The notes under the pieces are model-generated. The model had not been told where the DNA came from, ran no database searches, and saw only the letters and a list, made by a program, of their open reading frames with translations. This document shows positions 1,730 through 18,782 of a stretch of 37,024 nucleotides of DNA, in pieces; position 1 is the first letter of the stretch; each line of letters begins with the position of its first letter. The translations under genes were made by a program, and so were the position numbers. Origin of the DNA: Natronolimnohabitans innermongolicus JCM 12255 (GTDB lineage Archaea > Halobacteriota > Halobacteria > Halobacteriales > Natrialbaceae); NCBI RefSeq assembly GCF_000337215.1, contig NZ_AOHZ01000015.1, positions 51,925 to 88,948 on the forward strand, given 5' to 3'.

Positions 1730-1741
1730 GGGTAAACGTTT

Positions 1742-1888: not shown

Positions 1889-1894
1889 TCGGAC

Positions 1895-2439: not shown

Positions 2440-2444
2440 TTCTG

Positions 2445-2763
2445 CTATCCGCTGAACCCGTCCAACGTGGACTCCCGGTCGTCAGCCTCGAGAAAACCGG
2501 CGTCGCGCTCGATTCCGCGGTCGGACAGTTCGTCCGTGAACTCCTCGGTCGACGTTCCCGCCAGTTCGGCGGCCCGATTGAGACTTCCATCGCCCGCTCG
2601 GTACTTCTCGACGGCGAGCGACGTCCGGAGTTGCGGGCGGCGACGCAGCAGTTCGCGAAGCGTCCTCGAGGACGTCGTCCTCGTCCTCGTACCCACCGAC
2701 GGCCGCAATCGTCTCGATATCGTTCGCGAGGCCGGTCAGTAGTCGTCCGTACGGTCGAATTAC
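2445..2763 (-). pseudogene. UPF0175 antitoxin, frameshifted copy 1
   Basis: The N-terminal half (LTGLANDIETIAAVGGYEDE, then DVLEDA) is in one frame. The C-terminal half (LRELLRRRPQLRTSLAVEKY, then LNRAAELAGTSTEEF) is in another. Together they make a normal UPF0175 antitoxin of roughly 90-100 residues. The frames separate at about 2657-2664, where GACGCTTCGC lacks two bases relative to the expected GACGCGCTTCGC. Copy 2 starts with GTG at the equivalent position, whereas here the codon is GTA, so this copy also lacks a start. The decayed PIN-like toxin follows directly downstream, as in functional UPF0175/PIN modules. Confidence 0.65.
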
Positions 2764-2802
2764 AGATAAACGCTGGGACGCGGTCGACGGCACCCGTCCG
2801 TG

Positions 2803-3010
2803 GACAGCCGTCGTCTCCGGACGGCGACTCGAGGCCGTCCCCGCTCTATACTGCCGAGACTGTTCGAGAAGGGACACCCACGACTACCGACACCAACGAA
2901 CAGCGGGTCGCGACGGGTGGGTTACGGCGTGGTGAGAGCGTGGTGACCGCTCTCGAGGCGCGTCAGGCGGGGGCGTCCACGGTCAGCCGAGGACGTCAGC
3001 TGTCTCCGGG
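2803..3010 (-). repeat. Repeat R, copy B
   Basis: The copy begins with CAGCCGTCGTCTCCGG (2805-2820) and ends with CAGCTGTCTCCGG (2997-3009). It contains the coiled-coil gene stop (2983-2985) and about 180 bp of its 3' flank. Long blocks match copy E (for example CGGCGTGGTGAGAGCGTGGTGA). The frameshifted UPF0175 gene starts about 40 bp beyond its left end. Confidence 0.7.
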
Positions 3011-3572
3011 CGGTCGGTGTCTGACTGGCGCTCGCTCGTACTCTCGCTCTCACTCGAGCGTGCGCCCGAGCGGGACCCTGTTCTCTCGCCCGGAATCTCG
3101 GCGTCCGCCGGGAGGTGCAGCCGGCGTTCGGTGTACTCGAGGCCGTTCTTTCGCTGACTGTGTTTCCGGACCGCCAGGCGGTGCTTGGAGAGCTCGAGGA
3201 TGGCGTCATCGGCGGCTTCGCCGCCTTCTCGAGACTCCTGCGGAGTCTCGCCGTGCGGGAGACGAGCTTTTTCGCGTAGGCGTCGCTCGTCCCGGGTTCC
3301 TGTCTGCGGATCCAGTGTTTGAGTTCGGAGGCGGTGACGGACTCACGGACGGACGCACAGCCTTCGGTCCAGGGATCGTCGCCTACGGTAGGGTCGGTGC
3401 GGGCTTCCCAGAGTTTCGCGGCGAGCCCGGTCGGCAGGGCGTCCGTACTCGAGCGCCGGAGATCCTCGTCCATCCGGGCCAGTTGCTGGATCGGGAGGAG
3501 ATCCCCGTGGGCCAGCCGGGTGTCAGTGCGTTCTAATGGGTCCTCGGAACCCGGGACGCGGTAGTAAGTACC
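2983..3572 (-). pseudogene. Truncated, disrupted copy of the coiled-coil gene C-terminus
   Basis: The segment matches the last ~190 codons of the intact gene at 9416-10582. It includes YYRVPGSEDPLERTDTR, LAHGDLLPIQQLARMDE and WTEGCASVRESVTASELKHW, and ends ETADVLG. The 5' part, with the coiled coil, is absent. A 41-bp net insertion consisting of two tandem hairpins (3211-3250) replaces four bases and shifts the frame in the middle of the helix that reads SRTIDAILEL in the intact gene. The start is lost. It is best read as a duplication of the gene's 3' end and not as a functional paralogue. Confidence 0.75.
3211..3250. repeat. Tandem paired-hairpin insertion (copy in B)
   Basis: GGCGGC-TTC-GCCGCC (3211-3225) is followed after four bases by CGAGACTCC-TGC-GGAGTCTCG (3230-3250). 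Both stems are perfect. The insertion is absent from the intact gene and present at the identical position in the copy at 6701-6740, so it was inherited through duplication. Confidence 0.8.
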
Positions 3573-3660
3573 CCTTGACGAACGAAGCTCAAAATCCCGT
3601 GGTTGATTTTGTGATATGATCTGTCGAATGTAGTTACTGTTCTGAACGCATCGGTTGTCG

Positions 3661-3742
3661 CCAGCCGTAATCGTCTCGGTATCTTTTGCGAGGCCGGGTA
3701 ATAGTCGTCCGTACGGTCGACTCTCAGATACCCACTGGGAAA
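3661..3742 (-). pseudogene. UPF0175 antitoxin 5'-end fragment (copy 3)
   Basis: About 80 bp closely resemble the 5' ends of the UPF0175 remnants: GTAATCGTCTCGGTATC here against GCAATCGTCTCGATATC, and AGTCGTCCGTACGGTCGA shared with copy 1. Only the start region and about 15 codons remain. It lies just beyond the 3' end of hepT, while copy 2 lies on the 5' side of mntA, so the MntA/HepT module is bracketed by pieces of UPF0175 genes. Confidence 0.55.
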
Positions 3743-3794
3743 AGAACAGCGAGCGCGATGAATCGTTTCCCAGCGGTAACGTACTCCGATCCGA

Positions 3795-4217
3795 TCATCG
3801 AGCTCGGAACCACGTCGCAATTTCCTGCTGAAATCGATCAATCCACTCGAGGTCGTCCTGTAGGACATCGTATACGAGGTCGTGATCGACATCCCCGTAT
3901 CGGTGAGCGAGATGATTACGAAATCCGACCGCCTCCGCGAGTTTTGCACCGGTCTCAGTTGCGATGATATCGGCTTCGACGAGGGCCTCGATTTCCTCGC
4001 GCGAGGTTTCAGCAGTTCCGAGGTTCTCGTTGGCACGAATATGGCTCGCCAGATCGATACACGACTGAATCGCGTTCATCAACGACCGTTCGACGGCGCG
4101 CTGGAGAACGATATCCTCGAGGTACTCGTCTCTGGAGACGTTCCGCATCTTTTTACATTCGTTCGAATACTGGTTGATCAGTTCGAGTCGATCTACGACG
4201 ACATCTTCGTCGACCAT
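3795..4217 (-). CDS. hepT: HepT-like (DUF86) toxin of the MntA/HepT module
   Basis: This is a 140-residue helical HEPN-superfamily protein. The diagnostic RX4HXY motif is present as R100-NHLA-H105-R-Y107. In studied MntA/HepT systems this motif forms an RNase site or is the target of AMPylation by MntA, which neutralises the toxin. The protein is full length, with an acidic first helix (MVDEDVVVDRLELINQY). Its ATG overlaps the mntA stop by one base, the standard order and coupling for the family. Both genes appear intact, in contrast with the decayed antitoxins on each side. Likely role: growth arrest during plasmid loss or phage infection. Confidence 0.9.
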   Translation of the reverse strand: MVDEDVVVDRLELINQYSNECKKMRNVSRDEYLEDIVLQRAVERSLMNAIQSCIDLASHIRANENLGTAETSREEIEALVEADIIATETGAKLAEAVGFRNHLAHRYGDVDHDLVYDVLQDDLEWIDRFQQEIATWFRAR

Positions 4218-4663
4218 TAGACGTCTCCCTCGGCCAGTCGATCGATGAACTCCTGGCGCTGCCGTTCGCGTCGGTCACTCGAGGCCTCGACGCGTCGCTC
4301 GAGGCGTCGCTCGTCCGCCGCTCTCGTCTCGGTATCACCGTAAATACAGATTCCGTTTCGAAGCGCGTTCAACGCGACCGTCTCGGGAAGCGCTTCGATG
4401 TCACTGACGTCCACGAACGGGGCGGCGTACGACTGGCTTTCGGCGTCGATTCGATTTCGTTGCCGGAACCGCTCGCGTCGCGAACAGCCCTCGGCGAACC
4501 GCACACCGAGATCGATATCCGAAGTCGGTGATTCCGTTCCCGCGGCATGCGACCCGAAGACAACGGCGTACCGGACGTCGGCGTCAGCGAACAGCGATCG
4601 CAGTCCCTCGAGGTCGATACTCGCAGCGATCTCCGCGGCCGACTCGTGCGGATCCTCCCGCAT
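4217..4663 (-). CDS. mntA: MntA-like minimal nucleotidyltransferase antitoxin
   Basis: This is a 148-residue minimal nucleotidyltransferase. The catalytic signature GSX10DXD is complete: G37-S38 in VVFGSHAAGT, then D49 and D51 in TSDIDLGV. MntA antitoxins transfer AMP to the tyrosine of the HepT RX4HXY motif. The C-terminal third (about 100-148) is rich in Arg and Glu and extends beyond the minimal fold. The ATG at 4661-4663 has a TATA-like box (AGTATAAG, 4688-4695) about 28 bases upstream, so the two-gene transcript is probably leaderless. It forms an operon with hepT. Confidence 0.88.
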   Translation of the reverse strand: MREDPHESAAEIAASIDLEGLRSLFADADVRYAVVFGSHAAGTESPTSDIDLGVRFAEGCSRRERFRQRNRIDAESQSYAAPFVDVSDIEALPETVALNALRNGICIYGDTETRAADERRLERRVEASSDRRERQRQEFIDRLAEGDV

Positions 4664-4687
4664 GGCGTCACATACGTCCGGATTCCT

Positions 4688-4695
4688 CTTATACT
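4688..4695 (-). promoter_or_regulatory. TATA box for mntA-hepT
   Basis: AGTATAAG on the minus strand is centred about 28 bases before the mntA ATG. This is the spacing expected for a leaderless haloarchaeal promoter. Confidence 0.5.
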
Positions 4696-4786
4696 ATCGG
4701 TGTCTCGGGCCAGTTCTCGTTAGTACAAACGCTGCGTCGGCGACTGCTGAACGATTATCACGGGGACCTACTCCTCTTCAATTCAA

Positions 4787-5117
4787 CTACCCACAGAACC
4801 CGTCCAACGTGGACTCTCGATCGTCGGTCTCGAGAAAGCCGGCGTCGCGCTCGATGCCGCGGTCGGCCAGTTCCGTTTTGAACTCCTTGGCCTCGGTCGA
4901 CGTTCCCGCCAGTTCGGCGGCCCGATTGAGACTTCCGTCGCCCGCCCGGTACGTCTCGACGGCGAGCGACGTCCGGAGTTGCGGGCGGCGACGCAACAGT
5001 TCGCGAAGCGTCCTCGAGGACGTCGTCCTCGTCCTCGTCCTCGTACCCGCCGACGGCCGCAATCGTCTCGATATCGTTCGCGAGGCCGGTCAGTAGTCGT
5101 CCGTCCGGTCGACTCAC
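4787..5117 (-). pseudogene. UPF0175 antitoxin, frameshifted copy 2
   Basis: A GTG at 5117 opens a frame with RLLTGLANDIETIAAVGGYE and DVLEDA. The UPF0175 core (LRELLRRRPQLRTSLAVETY, LNRAAELAGTSTEAKEF, ELADRGIERDAGF) continues in another frame to the stop at 4787-4789. The break is at about 5005-5013 and has exactly the same sequence (GACGCTTCGC) as in copy 1. No toxin of its own follows; MntA/HepT lies downstream instead. An extra GAGGAC repeat unit lengthens the acidic EDEDEDD stretch relative to copy 1. Confidence 0.65.
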
Positions 5118-5155
5118 GGATACCCGCTGGGACGCGTTCGATACGAGCGTCCGTA

Positions 5156-5310
5156 GACAGCCGTCGTCTCCCGACGGCGACTCGAGGGCGTCCGTCTTCT
5201 AGACTACCGAGAGACCCTTCGGTCTCTCGTCGTTTCGTTCGCGTCGCTCACGAAACTACCGAGACTGCTCGAGCAGGATACTCACGACTACCGTATCCAA
5301 CGAACAGTGT
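5156..5310 (-). repeat. Repeat R, copy C (flank only)
   Basis: It begins with CAGCCGTCGTCTCC at 5158-5171 and shares CGACTCGAGGGCGTC and CTACCGAGACTGCTCGAG-type blocks with copies B, D and E. It lacks the coiled-coil gene end and the right-hand CAGCTGTCTCCGG motif. A paired-hairpin insertion (5208-5256) interrupts it. The frameshifted UPF0175 copy 2 starts about 40 bp beyond its left end, the same arrangement as copy B. Confidence 0.6.
5208..5256. repeat. Tandem paired hairpins with stems unlike the 3211 pair
   Basis: CGAGAGACC-CTTC-GGTCTCTCG (5208-5229) is followed by GTTTCGT (5232-5238) and ACGAAAC (5250-5256). The two-stem layout resembles the insertions at 3211 and 6701 but the stem sequences differ. 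Confidence 0.65.
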
Positions 5311-5428
5311 ATACTCGAGGAGGCTCCAACCGAGACTAGTACTTCGTGATGCGTCGACGTGCGAGTCGCATATCGGTCAACCGGTGTTCGGCACGGACGG
5401 CCTTCCCGAGGACGTGCAGCTGCAGTGA

Positions 5429-5842
5429 CTACGCTTCTTCGACCATCCTCACGAACTCGTCGGGTGTAACGATGTCCACCCCGTCGTACGAGTGGAGATC
5501 GAGGAGATCTTCGTCACCGGAAACGAGGACGTCCGCATCACCTTCGACCGCACACTCGAGGAATTTATCGTCATCAGCGTCCCGCACTCGCGTAATCGAG
5601 TTCTCGGTCTGGACGATCTCGGCTTCGAGTCGGAGCAATGTGAGATACTGGGTCCGTTCGGCACCCGTAAACGGAAGACGGTCATACTCCATCACTCGCT
5701 CGAGTTCTCTGAGCGGTTCTTCAGATGCGACCAGCTGTCTCTCTTCGTCGAACGTCCGAAGCAACGCTTCGAGCGGTCGTCCACCGAATCCGAGCGCCGA
5801 GACACTCACGTTCGTATCGACGACTACTCGGAGCGAGCCAAT
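5429..5842 (-). CDS. PIN-family toxin with no conventional start codon
   Basis: The open frame reads LRVVVDTNVSVSALGFGGRP, the N-terminus of the 'putative toxin, PIN family' group (the strand ending in the catalytic aspartate of VVVDTN). The other acidic residues appear in DADDDKFLECA and VSGDEDLLDL, and the end DIVTPDEFVRMVEE is normal. Between the upstream in-frame TGA and the VVVDTN motif there is no ATG, GTG or TTG; the only near-start is ATT at 5842-5840. The first GTG (5809) lies after the catalytic aspartate and would give a dead protein. Either a non-standard start, translational coupling with the overlapping antitoxin stop (5824-5826), or inactivation must apply. Confidence 0.7.
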   Translation of the reverse strand: MGSLRVVVDTNVSVSALGFGGRPLEALLRTFDEERQLVASEEPLRELERVMEYDRLPFTGAERTQYLTLLRLEAEIVQTENSITRVRDADDDKFLECAVEGDADVLVSGDEDLLDLHSYDGVDIVTPDEFVRMVEEA

Positions 5843-6087
5843 GCGATCGCGTCCTCGAGATCGTCTTCAGTCACGCCTTCCGCTTCGAATCGCTGGCGAG
5901 TCCGTTCGGTGAGCGCTCGGAATTCTGCCTTTCGGTCGGCGTTCGCCAGATCCTCTTCGGCACCAAGCCGAGCTGCGAGCACTGCGAGGGCTGTCGCCCG
6001 GGTGCTTCCGGTTCCAGTCGTCCCTGTGTCGCGGTCTCGAGCCGTATATTCGCCGTCCTCCTCAGTGATCTCGACTGTTGCACCCAT
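5824..6087 (-). CDS. HicB-like antitoxin paired with the PIN toxin
   Basis: This is an 87-residue protein. The first 42 residues (MGATVEITEEDGEYTARDRD, then GTGSTRATALAVLAARLG) look like the HicB-type beta-strand fold. The second half (FRALTERTRQRFEAEGVTED and DLEDAIALARSE) is a charged helical region of the sort that binds PIN toxins. The ATG at 6085-6087 is clear. The stop lies about 17 bases inside the open frame of the PIN toxin, so the two are translationally coupled. This mixed HicB-like/PIN pairing differs from the classical HicA/HicB module. Repeat R copy D begins about 90 bp upstream. Confidence 0.7.
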   Translation of the reverse strand: MGATVEITEEDGEYTARDRDTGTTGTGSTRATALAVLAARLGAEEDLANADRKAEFRALTERTRQRFEAEGVTEDDLEDAIALARSE

Positions 6088-6175
6088 TGAACGTCTGTCC
6101 GTACATACGTGACCAGCTTGGTAAATCGTTACGGTGGCCCCAGACGAACTCGTGCCGTCTCCGTCCGAAGTGACC

Positions 6176-6386
6176 GTGGACAGCTGTCGTCTCCGGACGA
6201 CCGCTCGAGGGCGTCTCCTTTGTTGACTGCCGAGACTGCTCGAGGAGGGAGACCCACAGCTATCGACACCTGCTAGCGAGGGGGGCGCGGCGGTTCGGTC
6301 GGGGTGGTTGAGAGGCGTGTGGGCTCTCTCGAGGCGCGTCAGGCGGGGGCGTCCACGGTCAGCCGAGGACGTCAGCTGTCTCCGGG
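6176..6386 (-). repeat. Repeat R, copy D
   Basis: It runs from CAGCTGTCGTCTCCGG (6181-6196) to CAGCTGTCTCCGG (6373-6385) and contains the coiled-coil gene stop at 6359-6361. It shares CGCTCGAGGGCGTCTCCTTTG and GACTGCCGAGACTGCTCGAG with copy E. It lies directly upstream of the HicB-like/PIN module. Confidence 0.7.
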
Positions 6387-6700
6387 CGGTCGGTGTCTGA
6401 CTGGCGCTCGCTCTCACTCTCGCTCGAGTCGTTGGCGTTGGTCGTGTCTCGGTCGTCACTCGAGTCGTCTGTGTCTGGGTCGTCGCTCGAGTCGTCCGTG
6501 TCGGGGTCGTCGCTCGAGTCGGTCATCTCGTCTGGAGTCGTGGCGGTCGTCTTATCCGAGGTCGAGCGGTTCGTCTCCCCCGGAATCTCGGCGTCGGCCG
6601 GGAGGATCAGCCGGCGTTCGGTGTACTCGAGGCCGTTCTTTCGCTGACTGTGTTTACGGACCACCAGCCGGTTCTTGGAGAGCTCGAGGATCGCGTCATC

Positions 6701-6740
6701 GGCGGCTTCGCCGCCTTCTCGAGACTCCTGCGGAGTCTCG
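6701..6740. repeat. Tandem paired-hairpin insertion (copy in D)
   Basis: It is identical to the one at 3211-3250: GGCGGC-TTC-GCCGCC then CGAGACTCC-TGC-GGAGTCTCG. It sits at the same position in the duplicated gene end. Confidence 0.8.
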
Positions 6741-6797
6741 CCGTCCGCGAGACGAGCTTCTTGGCGTCGGTCTCGCTGATGCCGCTTTCTTGGCGTT

Positions 6798-6847
6798 CAC
6801 AAAATCGAAGCTTTTGTGCAGCCCATCAGAAGTCGAAGATTTCTGGG
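6798..6847. repeat. Second paired-hairpin insertion in copy D
   Basis: CACAAAA-TCGAAGC-TTTTGTG (6798-6818) is followed by CAGAA (6827-6831) and TTCTG (6841-6845), the latter pair extendable by CCC/GGG. Both loops contain the GTCGAAG/TCGAAG core. It is AT-rich compared with its surroundings and is absent from copies B and E, so it inserted after duplication. Confidence 0.65.
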
Positions 6848-7175
6848 ACGGCGGATCCAGTGTTTGAGATCGGAGGCGGTGACGTACTCCGCGACGGACT
6901 TGCAGCCGTCCGTTCAGGGATCGTCGCCGACGGTGGGATCAGCTCTGGCCTCCCAGAGCTTCGCCGCGAGTCTGGTCGGGAGGACGTCCGTCGTGGATCG
7001 GCGCATCTCCTCGTCGAGGCGGGCGAGTTGCTGGACCGGGAGCAGGTCCGCGTGGGCGAGTGCGACGTCGTCGTCCCGGTTCAGGGGATCGCCCCGCTCC
7101 GGGAGGCGGTCGTATCGGGTCCCGTTCGCCTTCGTGATCCGTTCGAACGATCGATCGGCGCTCGCCTCCACTATC

Positions 7176-7225
7176 TGTAACATCACTCGAAGCTTCTTTA
7201 TATTCAGATTTCGTACTATGTTACA
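7176..7225 (+). promoter_or_regulatory. Promoter and palindromic operator of the wHTH-nucleotidyltransferase pair
   Basis: A TATA box (TTTATATT, 7197-7204) lies about 27 bases before the GTG at 7228. It is flanked by perfect 8-bp inverted arms, TGTAACAT at 7176-7183 and ATGTTACA at 7218-7225. The symmetrical placement around the TATA box suggests repression by the winged-helix protein encoded next. Confidence 0.6.
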
Positions 7226-7227
7226 AC

Positions 7228-8154
7228 GTGCTGCGACGCATCGAACTCAAGGTCCTTGCCACTGTCACACGCGGCGACACAATCTCTGAACTCGCGACAA
7301 AGCTCGACCACAGCGAGAGCTATCTCTCCCGTGCCGTCGCGGACCTCGTCGGGAAGGGCCTCCTCTACACGGAACGCGACGGTCACCGGAAGCGGATCGT
7401 TCCCTCAGATGCCCGAGCCGTCGAAGTCTTCCAGGATCTCGTCCGCCAGCATTCCCACATCGATTTCGCCGAGTTGTTGACTGGGAAGGCCCTCGAGGTA
7501 CTCTACTACCTCGATCAGCCACGAACCGTGTCCGAAATCGCCGAGCGGAGCGACAACTACCGCAACACCGTCAACCGAGTCCTGAAGCGGCTTCGCGACC
7601 GTGGCCTCGTCGGCACGGACGACGGGCGCTACGACTTCAATGGTGACTTCGACCGACTACACGAGTTCGCACGGGAACTCGCCCATCATCTTCACCGACA
7701 CCGTCTCCGATCAGTCGCTTCGAACGGCACGATTCTCTGGGAGGACCACGATGAGTTTCTCGCACAGGCCGAGACGGCAATCGATGCGGAGCACTTCCAC
7801 GAAACCGGTCTCGCTCGGTTCGCGACGTTTGACCTCCAGTTTCTGCTGACCCGCCATCGCTACTACCTCTACTCCGAGGACCTGGAAACAGTCTCGCCGG
7901 CGGAACTCTGCTGTCATACGTTGCTGATCGACGACGACGCCCGCTACCGCTCGTACTGTCTTCTGTTGCTCAGTCACGTCGACGTCGACGAGAGCGATCT
8001 TCGAGACCGAGCGGCGAACTACGGCCTCGAAGACGAGATCGATGCGCTGCTCCGGTACCTCGAGACGCAGGGAGCAATCGACGATGACCGCCTCCCCGAG
8101 TGGGACGAGTTCCAGGAGCTGGCGGCTGACTACGAGGTGGATCTACCAGAATGA
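7228..8154 (+). CDS. Double winged-helix regulator/antitoxin paired with a nucleotidyltransferase
   Basis: This is a 308-residue protein. The N-terminal part (about 1-70) is a winged helix: ISELATKLDHSESYLSRAVA, then KGLLYTERDGHRKRIVPS. A second winged helix (about 95-145) contains TVSEIAERSDNYRNTVNRVL. The remaining 160 residues are helical and acidic without a motif I recognise. The stop overlaps the ATG of the nucleotidyltransferase (ATGA at 8151-8154). A wHTH protein translationally coupled to a DNA-polymerase-beta-type nucleotidyltransferase is the layout of AbiE-like type IV modules, which makes this the likely antitoxin and repressor. The GTG start is chosen because the TATA box is 27 bases upstream and no in-frame ATG fits. 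Confidence 0.75.
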   Translation: MLRRIELKVLATVTRGDTISELATKLDHSESYLSRAVADLVGKGLLYTERDGHRKRIVPSDARAVEVFQDLVRQHSHIDFAELLTGKALEVLYYLDQPRTVSEIAERSDNYRNTVNRVLKRLRDRGLVGTDDGRYDFNGDFDRLHEFARELAHHLHRHRLRSVASNGTILWEDHDEFLAQAETAIDAEHFHETGLARFATFDLQFLLTRHRYYLYSEDLETVSPAELCCHTLLIDDDARYRSYCLLLLSHVDVDESDLRDRAANYGLEDEIDALLRYLETQGAIDDDRLPEWDEFQELAADYEVDLPE

Positions 8155-8954
8155 GACCGACATTCGGACGCGAATACATCGAGAACGAGTTCCAGCGAAT
8201 CGCAGATGGGCTGTCCGACCCGCTCACGCTCTTCCTGATCGGTGGCGGCGCGATGTCGCTGCGCGACCTCAAGGAGGCGACGAAGGATATCGATCTCGTC
8301 GTCGCGGACGGCGACACGTACGGCCAGTTGTGGGCCGTCCTGATGGACCTCGAGTATGCGGAGGTACAATCACTGGCTGCTGACTACCGAGCACTGGGCG
8401 CGACCAGCTGCGTCGAGAACGACGACGGGTGCCGGCTCGATATCTTCAACCAGCAGGTGGCGAACAAGCTCGTGCTGACCGAGGGGATGCGCGACCGGAG
8501 CGAGCCGTTCCTCGACACGGGTCGATTAACGGTCCGGCTGGTCAGCAACGCGGATATCTTCTTATTCAAGCTGATCGCGGGACGCGACGACGATATCGAG
8601 GACATGAACGTGCTCGTGCAGGCTGGCGTCGACTACGACATCGTCCGAGATGAACTCGAAACACAGATCGACCGACTCGGAGACGACCAGTTCGTCACCT
8701 TCGCGAACGAGGCCCTGGTCGAACTCGAGGAGCGATACGGAGTGACCACCCCGATCGAGGACCGCGTTCGAGAGCTGACGAATCGGTACTATCGGGGACT
8801 CGAGGTCCTCCACGCACTCGACGAACCGATGCCCGTCGACGAACTGGCCGCCGATCTCGGACTGGATCTCGAGGAAGTCCGAGACCGGGTCGCGTATCTT
8901 GTCGACTTCGACCGGGTACGCCACGCAGGCGACACAGTCAGTCCGGTGGAGTAG
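8151..8954 (+). CDS. Nucleotidyltransferase-fold toxin candidate (AbiEii-like)
   Basis: This is a 267-residue protein. LFLIGGGAMSLRDLKEATKD (about 28-46) followed by IDLVV carries the nucleotidyltransferase signature GGxAxxx...TxDID, with D46 and D48 as metal ligands. RLDIFNQQVANKLVLTEGM supplies the third acidic position and conserved helices. The C-terminal 60 residues (PMPVDELAADLGLDLEEVRD) look like an extra helix-turn-helix, which is unusual for AbiEii-type enzymes. Such toxins transfer nucleotides onto tRNA or other RNAs. It is coupled to the upstream winged-helix gene by a 4-bp overlap. All catalytic positions visible to me are intact. Confidence 0.72.
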   Translation: MRPTFGREYIENEFQRIADGLSDPLTLFLIGGGAMSLRDLKEATKDIDLVVADGDTYGQLWAVLMDLEYAEVQSLAADYRALGATSCVENDDGCRLDIFNQQVANKLVLTEGMRDRSEPFLDTGRLTVRLVSNADIFLFKLIAGRDDDIEDMNVLVQAGVDYDIVRDELETQIDRLGDDQFVTFANEALVELEERYGVTTPIEDRVRELTNRYYRGLEVLHALDEPMPVDELAADLGLDLEEVRDRVAYLVDFDRVRHAGDTVSPVE

Positions 8955-9232
8955 TCCGGTCGTCACGCCTGCTGTCAGTCGGGACAGGTACACGACTCGC
9001 CGATGCCATCGGTTTCATATCGGCTTCCGGATGCAGACTACAACGCGTACCGACCACCGTTCGAGAGGCACAAGACATCCATCGCTTCGTCGGCGGCGTG
9101 CTGGGCCCGTGGCTCGAGGTCGTCCTGTGGGTACGGGGTGTCGTCAACGACCAGCCGGTCGCGGACGTCGCCAGTTTGTCCTCCTACAGTCGTCAAATTC
9201 CATCGTCACGTCTCGGCATCTCTCGATCCTCC
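8955..9232. other. Intergenic stretch with a possible minus-strand remnant
   Basis: No complete gene is visible. On the minus strand about 45 codons ending at 9038-9040 (DVRDRLVVDDTPYPQDDLEP, then AADEAMDVLCLSNGGRYAL) read like a protein end, but they have no start and I do not recognise the family. It is probably the ruin of another module between the nucleotidyltransferase gene and repeat R copy E. Confidence 0.3.
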
Positions 9233-9443
9233 GTGGACAGCCGTCGTCTCCGGACAGCGACTCGAGGGCGTCTCCTTTGTTGACTGCCGAGACTGCTCGA
9301 GAAGGGACACCCACGACTACCGACTCCAACGAACGACGGCTCGTGGCGGGTCGATCACGGCGTGGTGAGAGCGTGGTGACCTCTCTCGAGGGACATTAGG
9401 CTAGGCCGTCCACGGTCAGCCGAGGACGTCAGCTGTCTCCGGG
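9233..9443 (-). repeat. Repeat R, copy E (flank of the intact coiled-coil gene)
   Basis: This is the presumed parental copy. CAGCCGTCGTCTCCGG (9238-9253) marks the left end. CAGCTGTCTCCGG (9430-9442) lies inside the last codons of the intact gene (stop at 9416-9418). The ~180 bp between are the gene's 3' flank, repeated in copies A-D. Confidence 0.7.
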
Positions 9444-10582
9444 CGGTCGGTGTCTGACTGGCGCTCGCTCGTACTCTCGCTCGAGGTCGCGCGACCGGGT
9501 TTGCCTAGGTTCGCGCTGGTGGGATCGCCCTCGTGGTCGCGGTCGTGCTCACGCTCGTGTTCGCTCTCACTCGAGCGGGACCCTGTTCTCTCGCCCGGGA
9601 TCTCCGCGTCCGCCGGGAGGATCAGCCGGCGTTCGGTGTACTCGAGGCCGTTCTTGCGCTGACTGTGCTTGCGGACCGCGAGGCGATGCTTGGAGAGCTC
9701 GAGGATGGCGTCGATGGTTCGGGAGACGAGCTTCTTGGCGTAGGTCTCGCTGATGCCTTGCTCCTGTCTGCGGATCCAGTGTTTGAGGTCGGAGGCGGTG
9801 ACGGACTCGCGGACGGACGCACAGCCCTCGGTCCAGGGATCGTCGCCCACGGTGGGGTCGGCTCTCGCCTTCCAGAGTTTCGCGGCGAGTCTGGTCGGCA
9901 GGGCGTCCGTCGCGGAGCGGCGCAGCTCCTCGTCCATCCGGGCCAGTTGCTGGATCGGGAGGAGATCCCCGTGGGCCAGCCGGGTGTCGGTGCGCTCGAG
10001 CGGGTCCGCGGCGTCGGGGACGCGGTAGTAGGCGCGGCCGTCGTCCGCGGTGAATCGCTCGAGGTGGTCGCACTCGAGGTCGATCTCGGCGGGGTCGACG
10101 GTGGTCTCGCGGAGGTGGGCGCCCTTCTCGAGTTCGCGGGCCTGGAGCTCCCTGATGCGGCGCTTGTTGGCGTTGGCCTTGTTCAGGGCCGCCTCGAGTC
10201 TGGTGGTCGTGGGGATCGTCTCGAGGAGGGTGGCGTGGGACTCGAGGCGTTGGGTATGGGTCTCGAGGCGTTGGGTATGGGACTCGAGGGTGTCCGCGTG
10301 GGCCTCGAGGCGTTTGGTATGGGTCTCGAGAGTTTCCGTGTGAGACTCGAGTTCGTCAGCGTGAGCCTCGAGTCGACGCGCCCGTTCCGCGCACCGCTCG
10401 TCCTGGGTCTCGAGTCGCGACTCGAGTTCGGCCACGGTGGTCTCGAGCTCGTCGAGGCGACGCTCCCGTCGCTCGAGTTTCGTTTCCAGTTCGTCGATCC
10501 GGTCGTCCCTGGTCTCGAGTGCGCGTTCGACAGCCTCGAGTCGGTCCGTGAGGGACTCGAGGGTGGGCTGTGGGTCACGCAT
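9416..10582 (-). CDS. Coiled-coil protein of unknown function, intact parent of the repeated gene ends
   Basis: From the ATG at 10582 (MRDPQPTLESLTDRLEAVER) the protein has 388 residues. An upstream in-frame start would add a low-complexity Thr/Arg stretch and is unlikely. Residues ~5-140 form a long coiled coil, including seven consecutive 7-residue repeats of the type RLExHxx (21-bp DNA repeats, 10229-10375). A conserved domain follows (YYRVPDAADPLERTDTRLAH, LPTRLAAKLWKARADPTVGD) and then a segment resembling a helix-turn-helix (ASDLKHWIRRQEQGISETYA, AILELSKHRLAVRKHS). The end is disordered and acidic. The ATG overlaps the stop of the upstream gene by 8 bp. I do not recognise the family; a plasmid or provirus origin and DNA binding are inference. 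Its 3' end has been copied four more times to the left. Confidence 0.8.
   Translation of the reverse strand: MRDPQPTLESLTDRLEAVERALETRDDRIDELETKLERRERRLDELETTVAELESRLETQDERCAERARRLEAHADELESHTETLETHTKRLEAHADTLESHTQRLETHTQRLESHATLLETIPTTTRLEAALNKANANKRRIRELQARELEKGAHLRETTVDPAEIDLECDHLERFTADDGRAYYRVPDAADPLERTDTRLAHGDLLPIQQLARMDEELRRSATDALPTRLAAKLWKARADPTVGDDPWTEGCASVRESVTASDLKHWIRRQEQGISETYAKKLVSRTIDAILELSKHRLAVRKHSQRKNGLEYTERRLILPADAEIPGERTGSRSSESEHEREHDRDHEGDPTSANLGKPGRATSSESTSERQSDTDRPETADVLG
10229..10375 (-). repeat. Seven 21-bp tandem repeats coding for heptads
   Basis: Consecutive units of CTCGAG-centred 21-mers encode RLEAHAD, ELESHTE, TLETHTK, RLEAHAD, TLESHTQ, RLETHTQ and RLESHAT. The exact heptad period preserves the coiled coil, and unit number may vary between strains. 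Confidence 0.85.
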
Positions 10583-11126
10583 CGTCGTCGCCCTCCGCGG
10601 CGTCGTGGTCGTCCGTGTGGTGGTCGTCGGTGGTGTCGTGGTCGTCGGTGTTCTGGTGGGTGTCGTGCTCGAGGTCGTCGGTGTCCGGGTCGCGTTCACG
10701 ATCGTCAGTCTCGTCCGAACTCGAGTCGGCGTCACGATCGCGTCGCCGCTGGTGGTATTCGAACGTCCGCGAATCCGGGCCGGAGTAGACCGTGGTTCCC
10801 GATCTATCGCCGTCGGCGTCGTCTGCGTCTCGCCCCTGCTCCCAGTCCGGCCGGTACGGGATCAGCGCCTCCGGCCCGTAGCACAACAGGCCGAGCTGGC
10901 CCACCTCCGCTCTGATCTCTCGGCAGCGACGGCGCGCCTCGCGGCGCTGCTCGTCGGTGAGTCGTTGGTTCTGGATTTCGGTGGCCGGATCGTGGAAGTG
11001 CTCGAGGAGTCGGCGGGTGAGATAGTCGATCGACTCGAGGTGCGTGCGGATCGTCTGCGTGGCAGTTTCGGTCTGTTCGTCCCGTCGGTCGGAGCTTTCA
11101 TTGCCCCGGGAATCGTCGTTTGACAT
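10575..11126 (-). CDS. Acidic-tailed protein of unknown function, first gene of the coiled-coil operon
   Basis: This is a 183-residue protein. Residues ~20-95 form a helical folded part (RTHLESIDYLTRRLLEHFHD, RLTDEQRREARRRCREIRAE, LGLLCYGPEALIPYRPDWE). After residue ~100 it becomes low-complexity, rich in Asp, His and Thr (TDDHDTTDDHHTDDHD), and probably disordered. The stop overlaps the coiled-coil gene by 8 bp, so the two are co-translated. I recognise no known family. The upstream 110 bp hold several nested hairpins. No TATA box is obvious within 30 bases of the ATG, so the transcript may have a leader containing those hairpins. Confidence 0.75.
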   Translation of the reverse strand: MSNDDSRGNESSDRRDEQTETATQTIRTHLESIDYLTRRLLEHFHDPATEIQNQRLTDEQRREARRRCREIRAEVGQLGLLCYGPEALIPYRPDWEQGRDADDADGDRSGTTVYSGPDSRTFEYHQRRRDRDADSSSDETDDRERDPDTDDLEHDTHQNTDDHDTTDDHHTDDHDAAEGDDDA

Positions 11127-11232
11127 GCTTCCGTACTCGGGTTACGGGAGCTTCTCGCGGACTCGGTGGCCCTAACACCGAGTCGCGATTTTGCGACTCA
11201 GTCGTTTGGTGAGTCACATTTGCTTCCGTACT
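11126..11232 (-). promoter_or_regulatory. Leader with mutually exclusive hairpins and a 12-bp direct repeat
   Basis: GACTCGGTG (11160-11168) pairs with CACCGAGTC (11176-11184). GAGTCGC (11180-11186) pairs with GCGACTC (11193-11199). The two stems share GAGTC at 11180-11184, so only one can form at a time. A third weak hairpin lies at about 11128-11151. The block is bracketed by TGCTTCCGTACT at 11126-11137 and 11221-11232. An attenuator-like leader, or a hairpin element with its target duplication, would both fit. Confidence 0.45.
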
Positions 11233-11359
11233 GAGAAGAACATACTCCATTGACATAAATCTTGACAACGACTGTCGACTGTAGAAAACAACGTTCGTAT
11301 ACAAACACGCAACGGATAGTGCTACTTTTTCTGCATTGCTGGCAGGTACTCACGGACAG

Positions 11360-11620
11360 ATGGTAGAGCGGGTCCCGTGGATGGCGCCTGTCGATTACGA
11401 AATTATGCTCTTCTTCGACGAGCACCCGATTCTGGTCTCTCCGAAGGTGCTTGCAGTGAATATCGAGTACGATCGGCAATACGTGAGTCGGCGTTGCAGT
11501 GCGCTTGTGGACGCAGGATTATTGGAGTCTGTTGACACTGGACTCTATGCACTTACCGAAATTGGTGAAGCGTACCTCGAGGGGAATATCGACGCGAAAG
11601 AGCTCGAACCTAGCGAATAA
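11360..11620 (+). CDS. Small winged-helix transcriptional regulator
   Basis: This is an 86-residue protein from the ATG at 11360. The pattern (YEIMLFFDEHPILVSPKVLA, DRQYVSRRCSALVDAGLLES, GLYALTEIGEAYLEG) is the winged-helix architecture of haloarchaeal MarR-like/PhiH1-repressor-like proteins. The recognition helix is around QYVSRRCSAL and the wing around DTGLYALTE. It sits at the boundary between the toxin-antitoxin island and the glycan locus, facing the same way as the asparagine-synthetase-like gene, and may control the locus or the island. The longer reading frame from a TTG at 11336 is less likely. Confidence 0.8.
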   Translation: MVERVPWMAPVDYEIMLFFDEHPILVSPKVLAVNIEYDRQYVSRRCSALVDAGLLESVDTGLYALTEIGEAYLEGNIDAKELEPSE

Positions 11621-11798
11621 GACGGACACTAGATGAGTTGAAACGAATACTCCGTAACAAGGTATCAAGTAGAGGATGTCTTGTCAGGCTGATTTGTGTT
11701 TGTGGTCGCCTCGTTGGTGTTATCAGCTGTTTAAACTGATATCCGTTACAATACAAATCAAGATACAGTCGGTAGGATAATACACTGATCAAAGATGG

Positions 11799-11804
11799 TT
11801 TATA
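11799..11804 (+). promoter_or_regulatory. TATA box for the asparagine-synthetase-like/flippase operon
   Basis: TTTATA is centred about 28 bases before the ATG at 11829. The 208-bp gap before that ATG is AT-rich and otherwise shows no gene. Confidence 0.5.
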
Positions 11805-11828
11805 CTCAGACCTTGATGTTATAGAAAT

Positions 11829-13733
11829 ATGGTTGGCATCTTCGGAGCTACAACTGCTGACTCTGTCGGCACCCATTCTTTTGGAGAAATGCTACAATGG
11901 TGGGGAGATGAAGACACACAATGGTATGAAGACGACACTATCTCCATCGTGCTTTCACAACACGAAATTTTCGGCGAAAACCAACCAGTTGAAGTAGACG
12001 ATATTCGACTCTGGGTCTGGGGAACCATAGTTGGATGTGACGCACCCGATGGGTATTCATCGCGCCACGATACGCACCCAAACTGCACCGATGCAGAATA
12101 TTGTGCACACTTATATCAAGAATACGGACAGGATTTTGTCAAGTATCTAAACAGTGAGTTCGTCGTCATTCTTTACGACCCGGATGGTGGCGAAATAACG
12201 ATTTGTACCGATCGACTGGGGACTCGTCCTGTATTTTATACAATAACAGACGAGAGGGAGTTGGTGTTCTCGACCCAACTACAAACGCTACCGGAGTACC
12301 CCTCCGTCAAACCGTCGTTCGAAGATCGGTATTTATACGAGTTCTTTTCGTTCGAACGAGCGATAGGAACACGCACCCCGATTTCTAACGTTGAAAAGTT
12401 ACCGCCGGCATCAATAACAACGGTAGACATAGAGTCCGGTGACTATCAAACAAACGTTTATTGGAGACCGGAATATCAACCAGTAGATCGGCCATATTCG
12501 TACTTCGTTCAAGAGTTTGCGGATATATTCAAGCAAGCAGTTATCGACCGCACGCAAGATGATGCAAACTATGGTGTTCTGTTAAGTGGTGGAATTGATT
12601 CTCGAATCATATTAGCCGCAATGGATTCATCCGTCACTGGACATCATATGAACGAATGGATGAATCAAGAGGCAGAGCTAGCTAAAAAAATATCGAATAA
12701 AACAGGCAACGAGTTCGATTTCTTACAGAGAGACGTAGATTATCAAGAGAAAGCGCTTGGTGAAAACCCGGCCCAGATGAATTTTGTGAGTTCGTTCGAT
12801 CAAGGCCAAGCGACGAACTTTCGAGACGAGATCAGCGAAAAGTCTGATGTCATAATGAGTGGGCTGTACAGTGACGTCTTATATCAACACCAATACACAC
12901 CCACGAAATCGTTCGAGATACCCGTCTTAGGGGAGCAAATCACACTGCCGATGGTGAGAAACGTCGATAGTATTGACGATTATCGCCAGTTGCTCATGGA
13001 CGGGCAATACACGCGGCCGAAGAAATCTATTCCGGCAGAATTCTTTGAAGCGGAAGAACCGCTTGCGCACGTTTTGAAAGACGAAATATTCCGTGATGGG
13101 AATGGGATCGTAAGTCACGGGGTGAAGTATCCGAGTGCCACAGAACTCATACGGTGTAGTTACTACTACCCAATAACCAATTCGTGGTCGTACTTCTTCC
13201 ATCAAAGCCTGATTCAGATGCAACCGTTCCGCAATCCATTCTTAGACATACGTCTACTAGATTTGCAGCATAAATTGCCCATAAAATACCATGCACGGAC
13301 AAACATTGTGAATGATGCGTTGTGTGAATTGAGTTCTGAACTTGCAAATATTCCACATGCGAACAACGGTATATCTCCATCTTCCCCATTTCTTGTTCGC
13401 CATTTTGGAAGTTATGCCTATAAGTTCAATCAAAGGTACCTCGGCCGAAGAAAGGATCCATCAGAACCACATCATACGAATGGGTCGTGGACAGACGACA
13501 ATGAACTAATTCGACTAACTAATTTCATTCCACAAACGATTAATCAGAATGAGAATCTAATTCAAAACTGCGACCAATTGCAACTGAACGAGGTGTGGAA
13601 TATATATGAAGAACATATGGACGGGGAAGATCGTCGAACTGAGTTATATCCATTAGCAACATTTTTGCAAATGCCGATAACTAAGCGTATATTGGAATCA
13701 TCAAACGAAGCTAAGAATACCCAATCGAGTTAA
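11829..13733 (+). CDS. Asparagine-synthetase-like protein lacking the catalytic Cys2
   Basis: This is a 634-residue protein with the two-domain layout of asparagine synthetase B. The N-terminal glutaminase-type domain (about 1-190) begins MVGIFGA and includes CTDRLGTRPVFY. The C-terminal ATP-pyrophosphatase domain has the PP-loop LLSGGIDSR at about 251-259. In true glutamine-dependent enzymes residue 2 is Cys, the glutaminase nucleophile; here it is Val. Glutamine hydrolysis should therefore not occur, and the domain may use free ammonia or another amine. In surface-glycan loci such proteins are suspected of amidating uronic acids. It is AT-richer than the island to its left. The flippase starts 4 bp downstream, so they form an operon. 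Confidence 0.82.
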   Translation: MVGIFGATTADSVGTHSFGEMLQWWGDEDTQWYEDDTISIVLSQHEIFGENQPVEVDDIRLWVWGTIVGCDAPDGYSSRHDTHPNCTDAEYCAHLYQEYGQDFVKYLNSEFVVILYDPDGGEITICTDRLGTRPVFYTITDERELVFSTQLQTLPEYPSVKPSFEDRYLYEFFSFERAIGTRTPISNVEKLPPASITTVDIESGDYQTNVYWRPEYQPVDRPYSYFVQEFADIFKQAVIDRTQDDANYGVLLSGGIDSRIILAAMDSSVTGHHMNEWMNQEAELAKKISNKTGNEFDFLQRDVDYQEKALGENPAQMNFVSSFDQGQATNFRDEISEKSDVIMSGLYSDVLYQHQYTPTKSFEIPVLGEQITLPMVRNVDSIDDYRQLLMDGQYTRPKKSIPAEFFEAEEPLAHVLKDEIFRDGNGIVSHGVKYPSATELIRCSYYYPITNSWSYFFHQSLIQMQPFRNPFLDIRLLDLQHKLPIKYHARTNIVNDALCELSSELANIPHANNGISPSSPFLVRHFGSYAYKFNQRYLGRRKDPSEPHHTNGSWTDDNELIRLTNFIPQTINQNENLIQNCDQLQLNEVWNIYEEHMDGEDRRTELYPLATFLQMPITKRILESSNEAKNTQSS

Positions 13734-13737
13734 ATTT

Positions 13738-15174
13738 ATGGGAATCTCACAGAAGATTTCGACGGATGTTCTTGTAACTACATTAGTGAAACTTTCGTTA
13801 AAAGTTCGTGGATTAATCGTCATTCCAATACTAACCATATACCTTGGCGCCGCTGACTACGGTGCATACGTTCAGATACTCGCAATTACAACACTTGTTG
13901 GACAAGTTGCCATATTGGGTTTAGATACAGGAATTGTTCAATATATACAGCAGTATAACGACGATGAAGCAGTTGTATATTGGTCAATTATGAGTCTAAT
14001 AATGGTTACTAGTGTGGTTTCTATACTAGTTGTGATAACTACGTCGTCATTGCTGTCACAGTATACACTTGGAACCACCGACTTCACCACTGCTTTTGTA
14101 ATTGGAGCAGGGCTTGTGCCCCTGACTATCGGATTTCGTCTTGGACAAGGATATTTGCGTGCTACTCGGCGAATCAAGATTTATTCATATTCTGATGCAG
14201 CCGAAGTATACCTTCATGTAGGGTCAATCACAGCAGTAGTCCTCTTAACTGAATGGGGGATTGTCGGTGTTATGGCAGCGGTCGTTGCCACTCGCTGTCT
14301 TGTAGTCCTTATAATGCACGCTGCAATCATATTTGAAGTGGGTTTTTCAAAACCTTCGTTAGCTCGTCTTCAAGCTTACTTGAACTACTCACTTCCAACA
14401 ATGGGTACAGATGTAGCACGTTCAACCTTAACACGTGCTGATCGTGTGCTTGTTGGGTTCTTCTTGGGAGCAAGTGCAGTTGGGGTCTACTCCGTGGCTT
14501 ACCAACTTGCCCAAGTAATGATGATTTACATTAGACCACTTTCTATCTCCCTCTTTCCTGAATTTTCCCGCCTTTGGTCCAACGACCCTACACAAATTCA
14601 AATGATTACTATACCGGGCCTACGATACTTTTTAGCCCTAGCAATTCCTTCAATTGGTGGTCTGTGGCTAGTCGGCCAAGACGTACTGAACCTTCTAACA
14701 ACATCAGAGATCGCTAGTTCTGCAGTTCCATTATTGATACTTCTCAGTGCTGGAATTCTCTTTCAGGGCTTAACTGAGATTTATACTCAACTGTTCTATG
14801 CAGCAGACAAAACGCGAATCCCGCTGATTATACAGGCATCATCTGCTATCATAAATGTTGTAGCGAATATTATTCTACTTCCTACTGTTGGTCTTGCTGG
14901 AGCCGCACTTGCAACACTCTTAGCGTATGGATTTGCAGCAACTACCACTGCTATTGGTTTTCAAGAATATCTTAAGATAATACCACCCCTCCAGACAGTT
15001 CTAGCACCAATTACAGGGACCACAGTGATGATAGTAGTATTCGCATCCCTGACTCTCAACTGGATTCTCACGATTGCTCTCGCACCCTTCCTCTATGGAC
15101 TTGTATTCTATGCAGCAGGTGGTATAGAGTATATAGAAATCAAGCGTCTGATGGACCATATTCGAACGATTTGA
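13738..15174 (+). CDS. Wzx-type polysaccharide flippase
   Basis: This is a 478-residue, very hydrophobic protein with about 12-14 membrane helices. It belongs to the oligosaccharide flippase family in the MATE/MOP superfamily. Typical features are VTTLVKLSLKVRGLIVIPIL at the N-terminus, LRATRRIKIYS after helix four, and the central ADRVLVGFFLGASAVGVYSV. Such proteins turn lipid-linked oligosaccharides from the cytoplasmic to the outer face of the membrane. It follows the asparagine-synthetase-like gene by four bases and converges on the minus-strand glycan operon. Codon use is AT-rich like its neighbours. Confidence 0.9.
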   Translation: MGISQKISTDVLVTTLVKLSLKVRGLIVIPILTIYLGAADYGAYVQILAITTLVGQVAILGLDTGIVQYIQQYNDDEAVVYWSIMSLIMVTSVVSILVVITTSSLLSQYTLGTTDFTTAFVIGAGLVPLTIGFRLGQGYLRATRRIKIYSYSDAAEVYLHVGSITAVVLLTEWGIVGVMAAVVATRCLVVLIMHAAIIFEVGFSKPSLARLQAYLNYSLPTMGTDVARSTLTRADRVLVGFFLGASAVGVYSVAYQLAQVMMIYIRPLSISLFPEFSRLWSNDPTQIQMITIPGLRYFLALAIPSIGGLWLVGQDVLNLLTTSEIASSAVPLLILLSAGILFQGLTEIYTQLFYAADKTRIPLIIQASSAIINVVANIILLPTVGLAGAALATLLAYGFAATTTAIGFQEYLKIIPPLQTVLAPITGTTVMIVVFASLTLNWILTIALAPFLYGLVFYAAGGIEYIEIKRLMDHIRTI

Positions 15175-15240
15175 TGAAAACTTGGGAGCTAGGACCTACC
15201 AATAGATTAATTGAATTACTCAATAATCGATTCCAAGCGG

Positions 15241-15693
15241 TTAAATCAACCAGTGTGCCACAGCAGTTTCGATACTATCTGTAGCTTCGATCGGAATATT
15301 AATACACTCATCAAACATATGATCGGTTTCGGGAGGGATCTCACCGAGCTCGACCCATGAATACTGTGTTGAACCTTGATCCTGAATACGCAGCGCAACA
15401 CTTACAGATTGAGTGGTACTACTACTCCGATTACGAACTGTCCCAGAAACCATAGTACACGACTCTTCTCGATCTTCTTGAGTTGCATCAATTTCGAGTA
15501 ATTCTAATGATCCTCGCAAGTCGCCACGGTCTTCAAACTCAAATGCGCGTTGTGCAGCACGGCGTTCAATTACCTGTTGTTCATTCCTCGAGTGCCTTCC
15601 ACTAACTATGACAGAACCAGTAGTTGCGACACTCACTGATCCTACTCCACCAACTGCGTACAGTAATGAACGACGATTTAATTCAGGAGACAT
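15241..15693 (-). CDS. Small exported protein, last gene of the glycan operon
   Basis: This is a 150-residue protein. The N-terminus NRRSLLYAVGGVGSVSVATT has twin arginines before a hydrophobic stretch, consistent with a Tat signal or anchor. The rest (about 60-150) is a beta-rich domain (CTMVSGTVRNRSSSTTQSVS, VALRIQDQGSTQYSWVELGE) resembling the FxLYD-type extracellular domain. It probably sits on the outer face of the membrane. The start is 8 bases from the polymerase stop. The function in glycan assembly is unknown. Confidence 0.7.
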   Translation of the reverse strand: MSPELNRRSLLYAVGGVGSVSVATTGSVIVSGRHSRNEQQVIERRAAQRAFEFEDRGDLRGSLELLEIDATQEDREESCTMVSGTVRNRSSSTTQSVSVALRIQDQGSTQYSWVELGEIPPETDHMFDECINIPIEATDSIETAVAHWLI

Positions 15694-15700
15694 AATTGTA

Positions 15701-17236
15701 TCAAGGGACGCTATTTACTCGTTTATTTGTGGCGAGAACCAAGATGCTACTGATTACTATCAAAATTGGAAGGAGTTCGATCAAAAGTGGAGCTAACAAA
15801 TTATTTTCCAGTCCCCGCCTACCAATAGAGACGAGAAGCATAGAATAGATGACTAACGCGAAGCCCGATGAATTTTCACGCCGAATTGAATAGTACATGA
15901 GTGCGAATATGACGCCAAGTAGAACACCCATTAGTATGATTCCAAGGTATCCTCCGTTAATGTAGTAATTTCCAACCGCTCCAGGTGGCGATCCACCTGA
16001 TCGTTCTGGATTTACGAGTCGTCGCAATAGGCCACCAACAGTTAGAACAGGCTTATCTTCCCACAATGATCGTGGAATGTAGTTAGTAAGCACTCGAAGA
16101 TAATAGGAACCATAATAATAATTCAGTTCAGATGGCACAACTTCGGTTAGAGCCAAAAAATTGTCTATCTCGCTATTGTGTATCCCTGCAGTAAGAATGG
16201 ATACAACATCGATATCATTGAATGCTGAACTAGGTGGTTGATTCTGCCGAAGCGCAGCAAGCACTGGGAGGATCAAGCCACTAAACAATAGACCTAGCCC
16301 TACAAAAATCGGATATGCCTTAGTAGGGATTTTATTCAGCATTCTTGGCATAAGTGCCGATCCCTGCGTCTTATTGAATGACCAACAATAATAGCAAAAT
16401 ACGAATACGACAATAGCGATGCTTAGTGAAACGCCTCTTTGACCAAGTATAAGAAAGAAGCTCATGACTAATGGAAGAGCCCCTATCTGGAATAGTGAAG
16501 GGAATTTTCCAGAAATAACTGACGAAGCTAGCCATAAGAAGTAACCAACATATATAAGTCGGGCAATCATGGTGAAAATATAATATCCAGAGAAAAGCTG
16601 ACTGCGAGGCGTAGTTTCAGTATATAATATGAAAGGGTCCTGTGCAAGTGGGCCACGTATGAAAAGATATGCAAACGCCAATAGACCAACTCCGATAAAT
16701 AAGAAAGCAAACCGTTGAGTGATTATGGCTGTGGATCCAGTGCCTCCATCAACTAAATTTAGAATTCGGTAAATCCCGGATCGAGGTGTTTTGAAATTGT
16801 TGGGTGTTCTATTTAACATTTGGAAAGATACATTCTGAAGATACGGTTTTCCCCATTTCAGTGTCCCATAATATCCGACAATAGTACTAGAGAATACAAG
16901 TAATAATGCACCTCCATAGAGGAGAAAACCTTCTGTATACCCATATGATATTATTTCATATCTCCATTCCCACTCCTGCAAATACACACGATCAAACAGT
17001 GCAACTGCCAACATTGCAGTAAATATGGAGTGAAAAATGATCGGTTCGAAGATATCAAATCGTCCACTGCGAATTGAAAGGTACCATGGCAGACAAATCA
17101 CCACAAAGAGAGAGCCAAGGAGTAGCGGCAACAGTGATTGTTGTTCTACCGATAGAAATCCGACTAACACAGCTATTGAGATAAGAACACCAATGAAGAG
17201 GTGATCAATATACTTCGGAGACTTAAATTCAATCAT
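15701..17236 (-). CDS. Wzy-like oligosaccharide repeat-unit polymerase
   Basis: This is a 511-residue membrane protein with roughly 12 predicted helices. A long outer loop between late helices carries YIPRSLWEDKP and GAVGNYYINGGYLG, the pattern seen in O-antigen/oligosaccharide repeat-unit polymerases. These join lipid-linked repeat units into a chain after flipping. The gene is very AT-rich for a haloarchaeon. It lies 3 bp after the sulfatase-like gene and 8 bp before the exported protein. With the flippase and the initiating transferase it completes a Wzx/Wzy-type set. No Wzz-type chain-length regulator is visible in the window. Confidence 0.8.
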   Translation of the reverse strand: MIEFKSPKYIDHLFIGVLISIAVLVGFLSVEQQSLLPLLLGSLFVVICLPWYLSIRSGRFDIFEPIIFHSIFTAMLAVALFDRVYLQEWEWRYEIISYGYTEGFLLYGGALLLVFSSTIVGYYGTLKWGKPYLQNVSFQMLNRTPNNFKTPRSGIYRILNLVDGGTGSTAIITQRFAFLFIGVGLLAFAYLFIRGPLAQDPFILYTETTPRSQLFSGYYIFTMIARLIYVGYFLWLASSVISGKFPSLFQIGALPLVMSFFLILGQRGVSLSIAIVVFVFCYYCWSFNKTQGSALMPRMLNKIPTKAYPIFVGLGLLFSGLILPVLAALRQNQPPSSAFNDIDVVSILTAGIHNSEIDNFLALTEVVPSELNYYYGSYYLRVLTNYIPRSLWEDKPVLTVGGLLRRLVNPERSGGSPPGAVGNYYINGGYLGIILMGVLLGVIFALMYYSIRRENSSGFALVIYSMLLVSIGRRGLENNLLAPLLIELLPILIVISSILVLATNKRVNSVP

Positions 17237-17239
17237 CTT

Positions 17240-18703: not shown

Positions 18704-18782
18704 TTGCTATGGGGAGGTAGCGACGGTGATTGATTCGAAGGTTATTGTTTCCATTTCCGATCAATTATATGAATTTGGCTAT

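Follow-up and report, generated by a model that had tools for sequence, protein, structure and literature searches.

An operon unit with a structured leader RNA and an inverted-repeat tail in a stack of toxin-antitoxin genes of Natronolimnohabitans innermongolicus

Two overlapping genes, A and B, lie on the reverse strand of the 37,024-nucleotide stretch of Natronolimnohabitans innermongolicus DNA analysed here (the window), and the 3' end of the second recurs further left among toxin-antitoxin (TA) genes. What is this operon, and why do copies of its end accompany TA pairs? The initial annotation described a two-gene operon and proposed that it may be part of a plasmid-type maintenance or recombination machine. 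Both genes are real, but the computational analysis shows a unit that is larger than two genes: it is well supported that it consists of a divergent gene (W), a leader RNA, A, B and a conserved downstream element (TAIL).

9231 to 9442, reverse strand: TAIL copy at the intact operon, 212 bp, starting within the last codons of B and ending abruptly
9416 to 10582, reverse strand: gene B, 388 aa, ATG at 10582
9548 to 10219, reverse strand: conserved domain of B, residues 122-345, identity 62-74% across Natrialbaceae
10208 to 10582, reverse strand: coiled-coil part of B with 21-bp repeats, from tandem-repeat detection
10575 to 11126, reverse strand: gene A, ATG start, 183 aa, D/E/H-rich C-terminal tail
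about 11124 to 11234, reverse strand: leader RNA, a three-way junction ending at the AUG of A, folding z = -4.8
11360 to 11620, forward strand: W, divergent winged-helix protein, 86 aa from the ATG or 94 aa from a TTG at 11336

The proteins of the operon

The initial description of the two proteins held up well. A and B share 10575-10582, an overlap of 8 bp. A was said to have an acidic disordered tail, and its C terminus is indeed disordered in the model, following a two-helix hairpin (residues 18-45 and 58-83, pLDDT about 95); at its N terminus it carries the motif MSNDDSRGNESxDR. The coiled coil of B, in its N-terminal third, is encoded by the period-21 repeats already described (TRF, 10236-10330, 4.5 copies, score 118) together with a higher-order repeat of 63 bp (10233-10372). 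The C-terminal domain of B, modelled with AlphaFold2 from a 53-sequence alignment (mean pLDDT 82, with most of the core above 90), is predicted to end in a winged helix, in keeping with the HTH-like end first proposed.

Neither protein had been assigned to a known family, and this still stands: nothing passed the family cut-off in Pfam, NCBIfam, PHROGs or PADLOC, the sole PHROGs match of A having an E value of 0.056, and a PDB sequence search with A and B gave a single chance match (E 0.23). Foldseek comparison of the predicted B domain with the PDB and with viral models returned nothing at E <= 0.001. The best fold match to B, the winged helix of an ORC/Cdc6 complex (VIA Z 6.3), was no higher than background and was rejected. 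The winged helix is the only fold recognised in B, which has no detected enzyme domain. Nor did searches aimed at particular roles succeed. For anti-phage defence, no PADLOC model matched A or the C-terminal 267 residues of B; no TA family in Pfam, NCBIfam or PADLOC matched either protein; and the window's A and B have no Pfam match to TNB or RuvC, whereas their type IV relatives do. A phage origin of the operon was rejected: none of 50,697 phage records matched, and one viral contig, a distant one, did.

Across 80 related loci an A-type gene or a substitute precedes B, and the occupant of this slot differs by subtype. In type I, to which the window belongs, it is A; in types II and III it is another small protein. 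In type IV it is a TnpB-type protein that lacks the N-terminal RNA-binding half: two such proteins match the Cas12f1-like_TNB domain above the Pfam cut-off, and the RuvC acidic residues, judged by eye, are kept in the 13 members listed. In type V the protein has a PD-(D/E)XK-like motif, also judged by eye, with no Pfam match.

The leader RNA, the divergent gene and the tail

The leader fold and its compensatory changes are well supported. Among types II and III, 15 of 19 pairs show compensatory changes, and the covariation score is 0.528 against 0.236 +/- 0.021 for shuffled alignments (0/500), with slid registers at or below 0.146. Among type I leaders, the window included, covariation is modest (0.082 versus 0.048, 0/500, with P2 left out of the alignment) and P1 is nearly invariant. 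The 3' strand of P1, GCUCCCGUA, pairs with either of two copies of UACGGAAGC, the second of which touches the AUG; in the window the two alternative states are at -43.0 and -41.8 kcal/mol, a gap of about 1 kcal/mol. Scored by one ad hoc rule with no further tuning, an AUG-proximal hairpin reaches at least 5 in 49 of 72 first genes of modules, compared with 50 of 618 control genes. With a covarying fold that runs to the start codon and an alternative pairing, the RNA is a structured translational leader whose regulatory effect is predicted.

Covariance models of the leader recover most modules, including sequences outside the training sets such as L045, L046, L055, L062 and L109; model R2 gives the window leader 93.7 bits, the window being part of its training set. 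No Rfam family matched window positions 1-13000 at E <= 1, and in three related loci none reached the gathering score. Of 61 family genomes, 34 are matched by the type II/III model, including some that have no B match. At the B-less loci analysed the RNA usually runs up to the AUG of an operon of small genes, and several of these loci stand near an Orc1/Cdc6-like gene. As several of the first genes near Orc1/Cdc6-like genes are neither A nor B, the link to the replicon would run through the RNA and the divergent regulator and not through B. At one host-genome locus without B (L189, contig C75, 3521-5927) W and a type I leader (R2, E 2.7e-07) are followed by a gene for 102 aa and then, from inspection of the sequence, a likely tyrosine-recombinase gene, so that this leader lies within what looks like an integrated element.

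Genes of the W cluster stand beside the operon in 66 of the 80 related loci. W itself has weak Pfam matches under the cut-off, to MarR and HVO_A0261_N, and in PADLOC a 13-bit match to the AbiEi HTH and nothing else; the W of pHTUR04 carries the annotation 'PhiH1 repressor'. Left of the module, Ws stand in tandem in L052, L090 and two host-genome loci, an uncommon arrangement (3 of 74 loci counted). A second small divergent family, cl32 (about 70-116 aa; the single member searched has no Pfam match), replaces W upstream of many leader RNAs (L170-L185). An inverted repeat, ACACACGA...TTCGTGTGCAT, is conserved about 150-220 bp past W in modules with the TnpB-type protein (L070, L104, L115 and others).

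At the other end of the unit, TAIL is conserved for 205-240 bp from the last codons of B and then stops abruptly, with unrelated sequence beyond; closely related copies of type III agree on this boundary to within 10-20 bp. Its first and last 23 bp or so are inverted repeats, with 74% of positions paired in register and 22-48% in slid registers. The closing stem has 29 double changes and shuffled alignments 25.9, no excess within the set tested. We rejected TAIL as a covarying RNA: the RNAalifold fold was weak and covariation within Natrialbaceae did not exceed that of shuffles. We therefore call it an inverted-repeat element, whether it acts as DNA or as RNA. In a few distant plasmids and loci, a handful of sequences, the arms are complementary despite having unrelated sequences. 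The TAIL seed motif, like the gene caller, the cluster cut-offs and the AUG-hairpin score, was our own choice, set once and not varied.

Distribution and stacking of modules

B was found in 90 of the 125 Natrialbaceae genomes sampled, often in several copies (up to 15 matches per genome), and, in a sample of 295 genomes from the phylum, in 12, of which 2 lie outside the family. The module is present on plasmids, with B on 46 haloarchaeal plasmid records, in most cases as a single copy. Many other copies are chromosomal, several to a genome, so the module is not simply present once per replicon. A further module of the host genome is arranged tail-to-tail with an Orc1/Cdc6-like gene. The conserved unit contains no ParA, replicase or recombinase. 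A ParABS system would have a ParA-type ATPase in its operon, but from W to TAIL there is no ATPase gene, either in the window or in the conserved unit. An integron would have a tyrosine integrase gene beside the array, but none was found in the conserved unit or among the window genes searched there. The proposed plasmid-type machine thus survives in part: the module is element-like, is carried by plasmids and has leaders near Orc1/Cdc6-like genes, but it brings no recombinase, ParA or replicase of its own, and nuclease-like proteins in the A slot occur solely in other subtypes.

Widespread as the family is, the curated libraries searched gave no match to its proteins, leader or TAIL, and the unit is new in the sense that it matched no known kind tested here. 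No published description of it was found in a literature search that was thin on subscription journals.

The window contains four full TAILs, each with an HMM E value of about 1e-32 or lower and so not chance. As the initial annotation had recognised, the intact operon anchors all the duplicated ends. What is duplicated is the last codons of B and about 210 bp after them. Two of the further TAILs follow 5'-truncated remnants of B and one follows only its last codons, with TA cassettes between them:

7228 to 8954, forward strand: cassette of an HTH protein (HVO_2833_C) and a DUF6036 nucleotidyltransferase, an AbiE-like pair, from domain and PADLOC searches
6362 to 7147, reverse strand: B remnant, 5'-truncated, from about residue 174, with an internal stop (similarity to B)
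6174 to 6385, reverse strand: TAIL copy 2, HMM E 1.3e-33
5429 to 6087, reverse strand: cassette of a DUF7387 protein and a PIN_3 toxin (domain matches)
5151 to 5306, reverse strand: partial, rearranged TAIL with its 3' end retained (TAIL HMM)
3795 to 4663, reverse strand: cassette of an MNT nucleotidyltransferase and HepT (HEPN) (domain matches)
2986 to 3566, reverse strand: B remnant, 5'-truncated, from about residue 185, frame-shifted (similarity to B)
2798 to 3009, reverse strand: TAIL copy 3, HMM E 6.3e-34
1003 to 1706, reverse strand: cassette of an antitoxin-like gene and a PIN toxin (domain matches)
533 to 743, reverse strand: TAIL copy 4, with B reduced to its last few codons, HMM E 1.3e-32
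119 to 352, reverse strand: VapB-type antitoxin (PF02697), past the last TAIL (domain match)

At the far left of the window (2-87) is a 31-nt inverted repeat, 81% complementary with a 24-nt spacer, possibly the end of a small mobile element. Directly adjoining the module on its other side is a surface-glycan cluster (11829-27000) with asparagine-synthase-like, polysaccharide flippase and glycosyltransferase-like genes; glycan-type genes likewise flank some other copies of the module (L043-L121).

The initial annotation had suggested checking whether the pair occurs together with TA clusters, and it does. Arrays of TAILs with TA genes in between are found at five other loci (L063, L064, L074, L083 and L086). 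Among the 52 cassette proteins of the arrays PIN, DUF433, DUF5615, UPF0175 and HepT are frequent, and none of these is in the top 25 families of the 84 genes left of W, a loose comparison because the array loci were chosen for being arrays. Directly after single modules TA enrichment is weak; it holds for the multi-TAIL arrays, which were selected as such.

The remnants of B have variable 5' ends and usually keep the TAIL end, and these varying lengths suggest that one junction is not site-specific. One TA pair, 95% identical between two loci, follows a full TAIL in L064 and the last 48 bp of TAIL in L086. Taken together, the remnant ends, this shared pair and the tandem Ws suggest that new modules insert between the resident W and the resident B. 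We looked for a precise empty site or insertion junction and did not find one.

What the operon may do

The reading that we favour, tentatively, is that A and B are the variable and constant proteins of a control operon carried by mobile elements, with a role tied to the replicon, in haloarchaea, mostly Natrialbaceae. What this reading says of binding, of regulation, of a role for the replicon and of the sequence of insertions is what we infer from the features above. W would repress the divergent promoter, and the leader RNA would toggle between the three-way junction, which leaves the AUG of A free, and a hairpin that runs up to this codon, so setting translation of the operon. A would be an adaptor or an effector, varying by subtype, and B a coiled-coil DNA-binding protein acting on TAIL. 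Such an operon would most likely serve the maintenance or control of its carrier replicon or element. The window operon would then be the intact core of a stack in which successive modules entered at one place, older modules being cut down to the 3' end of B and TAIL, and the TA pairs beside each TAIL would have been retained because their loss is costly. If so, the stacks give a concrete example of the way in which TA clusters may grow around the operon of a mobile element, which in archaea is still an open question.

The same stack could instead have grown on a passive platform, B being an ordinary nucleoid-type or regulatory protein whose 3' end, with TAIL, merely offers homology for unequal recombination and so piles up TA pairs. 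The many diverged copies per genome would supply that homology, the variable 5' ends of the remnants look like the outcome of illegitimate or homologous rather than site-specific events, and B shows a winged-helix fold alone. Yet conservation halts sharply at one end of TAIL in many contexts, leader and TAIL are conserved past the needs of a passive repeat, and two subtypes place nuclease-like proteins in the A slot, and so we regard this explanation as rather unlikely. It seems very improbable that TAIL is the recombination site of an integron-like system with TA pairs as cassettes inserted at its end: the repeated TA-TAIL units, constant TAIL 3' end and inverted-repeat arms would fit, but the conserved unit has no integrase and the varying lengths of the B remnants do not suit a site-specific junction.

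The nuclease-like proteins invite a further explanation, a homing or invading selfish module in which the type IV and type V proteins cut residents near B and TAIL and repair installs the newcomer, TAIL being a guide-RNA-like or recognition element and the window's type I a nuclease-free form. The TNB domain and RuvC residues of type IV argue for it, as do the TAIL itself, which starts inside B and ends sharply before unrelated sequence as an omega RNA does, and the stacked truncated residents, which resemble repeated take-overs. It is distinctly unlikely, given that the window's module has no nuclease, that the TnpB-type protein has no RNA-binding half and that the PD-(D/E)XK assignment comes from motif inspection. 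Similarly improbable, in our judgement, is the broader proposal of an undescribed archaeal selfish element in which B and the structured TAIL define the target, swappable A-slot proteins, RuvC and PD-(D/E)XK-like nucleases among them, do the work, an RNA switch times expression and modules overwrite each other, leaving the TA pairs as a layered record.

Our favoured reading, a control operon of a mobile element, can be set beside several known systems. Bacterial Pdif modules and the TA cassettes of superintegrons have TA pairs in rows with a repeated element between them, and the window likewise has rows of TA genes split by a repeated element; however, here a truncated protein gene with a 210-bp tail takes the place of a 28-bp dif or an attC as the spacer, and a dedicated recombinase was not found. 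As for attC-like bounds of each cassette, TAIL has inverted-repeat arms, but the remnants before it differ in the length of B. The partition cassette of the archaeal plasmid pNOB8 consists of AspA, ParB and ParA. Our unit is similar in being plasmid-borne with a small winged-helix protein beside a second, predicted DNA-binding protein (B), but W is divergent and not co-transcribed, there is no ParA ATPase and B has no detectable similarity to ParB; set against ParABS more generally, TAIL would be the candidate site for B, whose winged helix is predicted. Elements of the IS605/IS607 type share with one subtype a TnpB-type RuvC and zinc-finger protein, and share the sharp structured 3' end, although TnpA and full-length TnpB are absent and the window's module has neither. 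Finally, the leader differs from translational riboswitches and autoregulatory leaders in having no Rfam match and in belonging to archaeal element operons, but resembles them in an alternative pairing able to occlude the start codon; in haloarchaea it would be a natural switch of translation.
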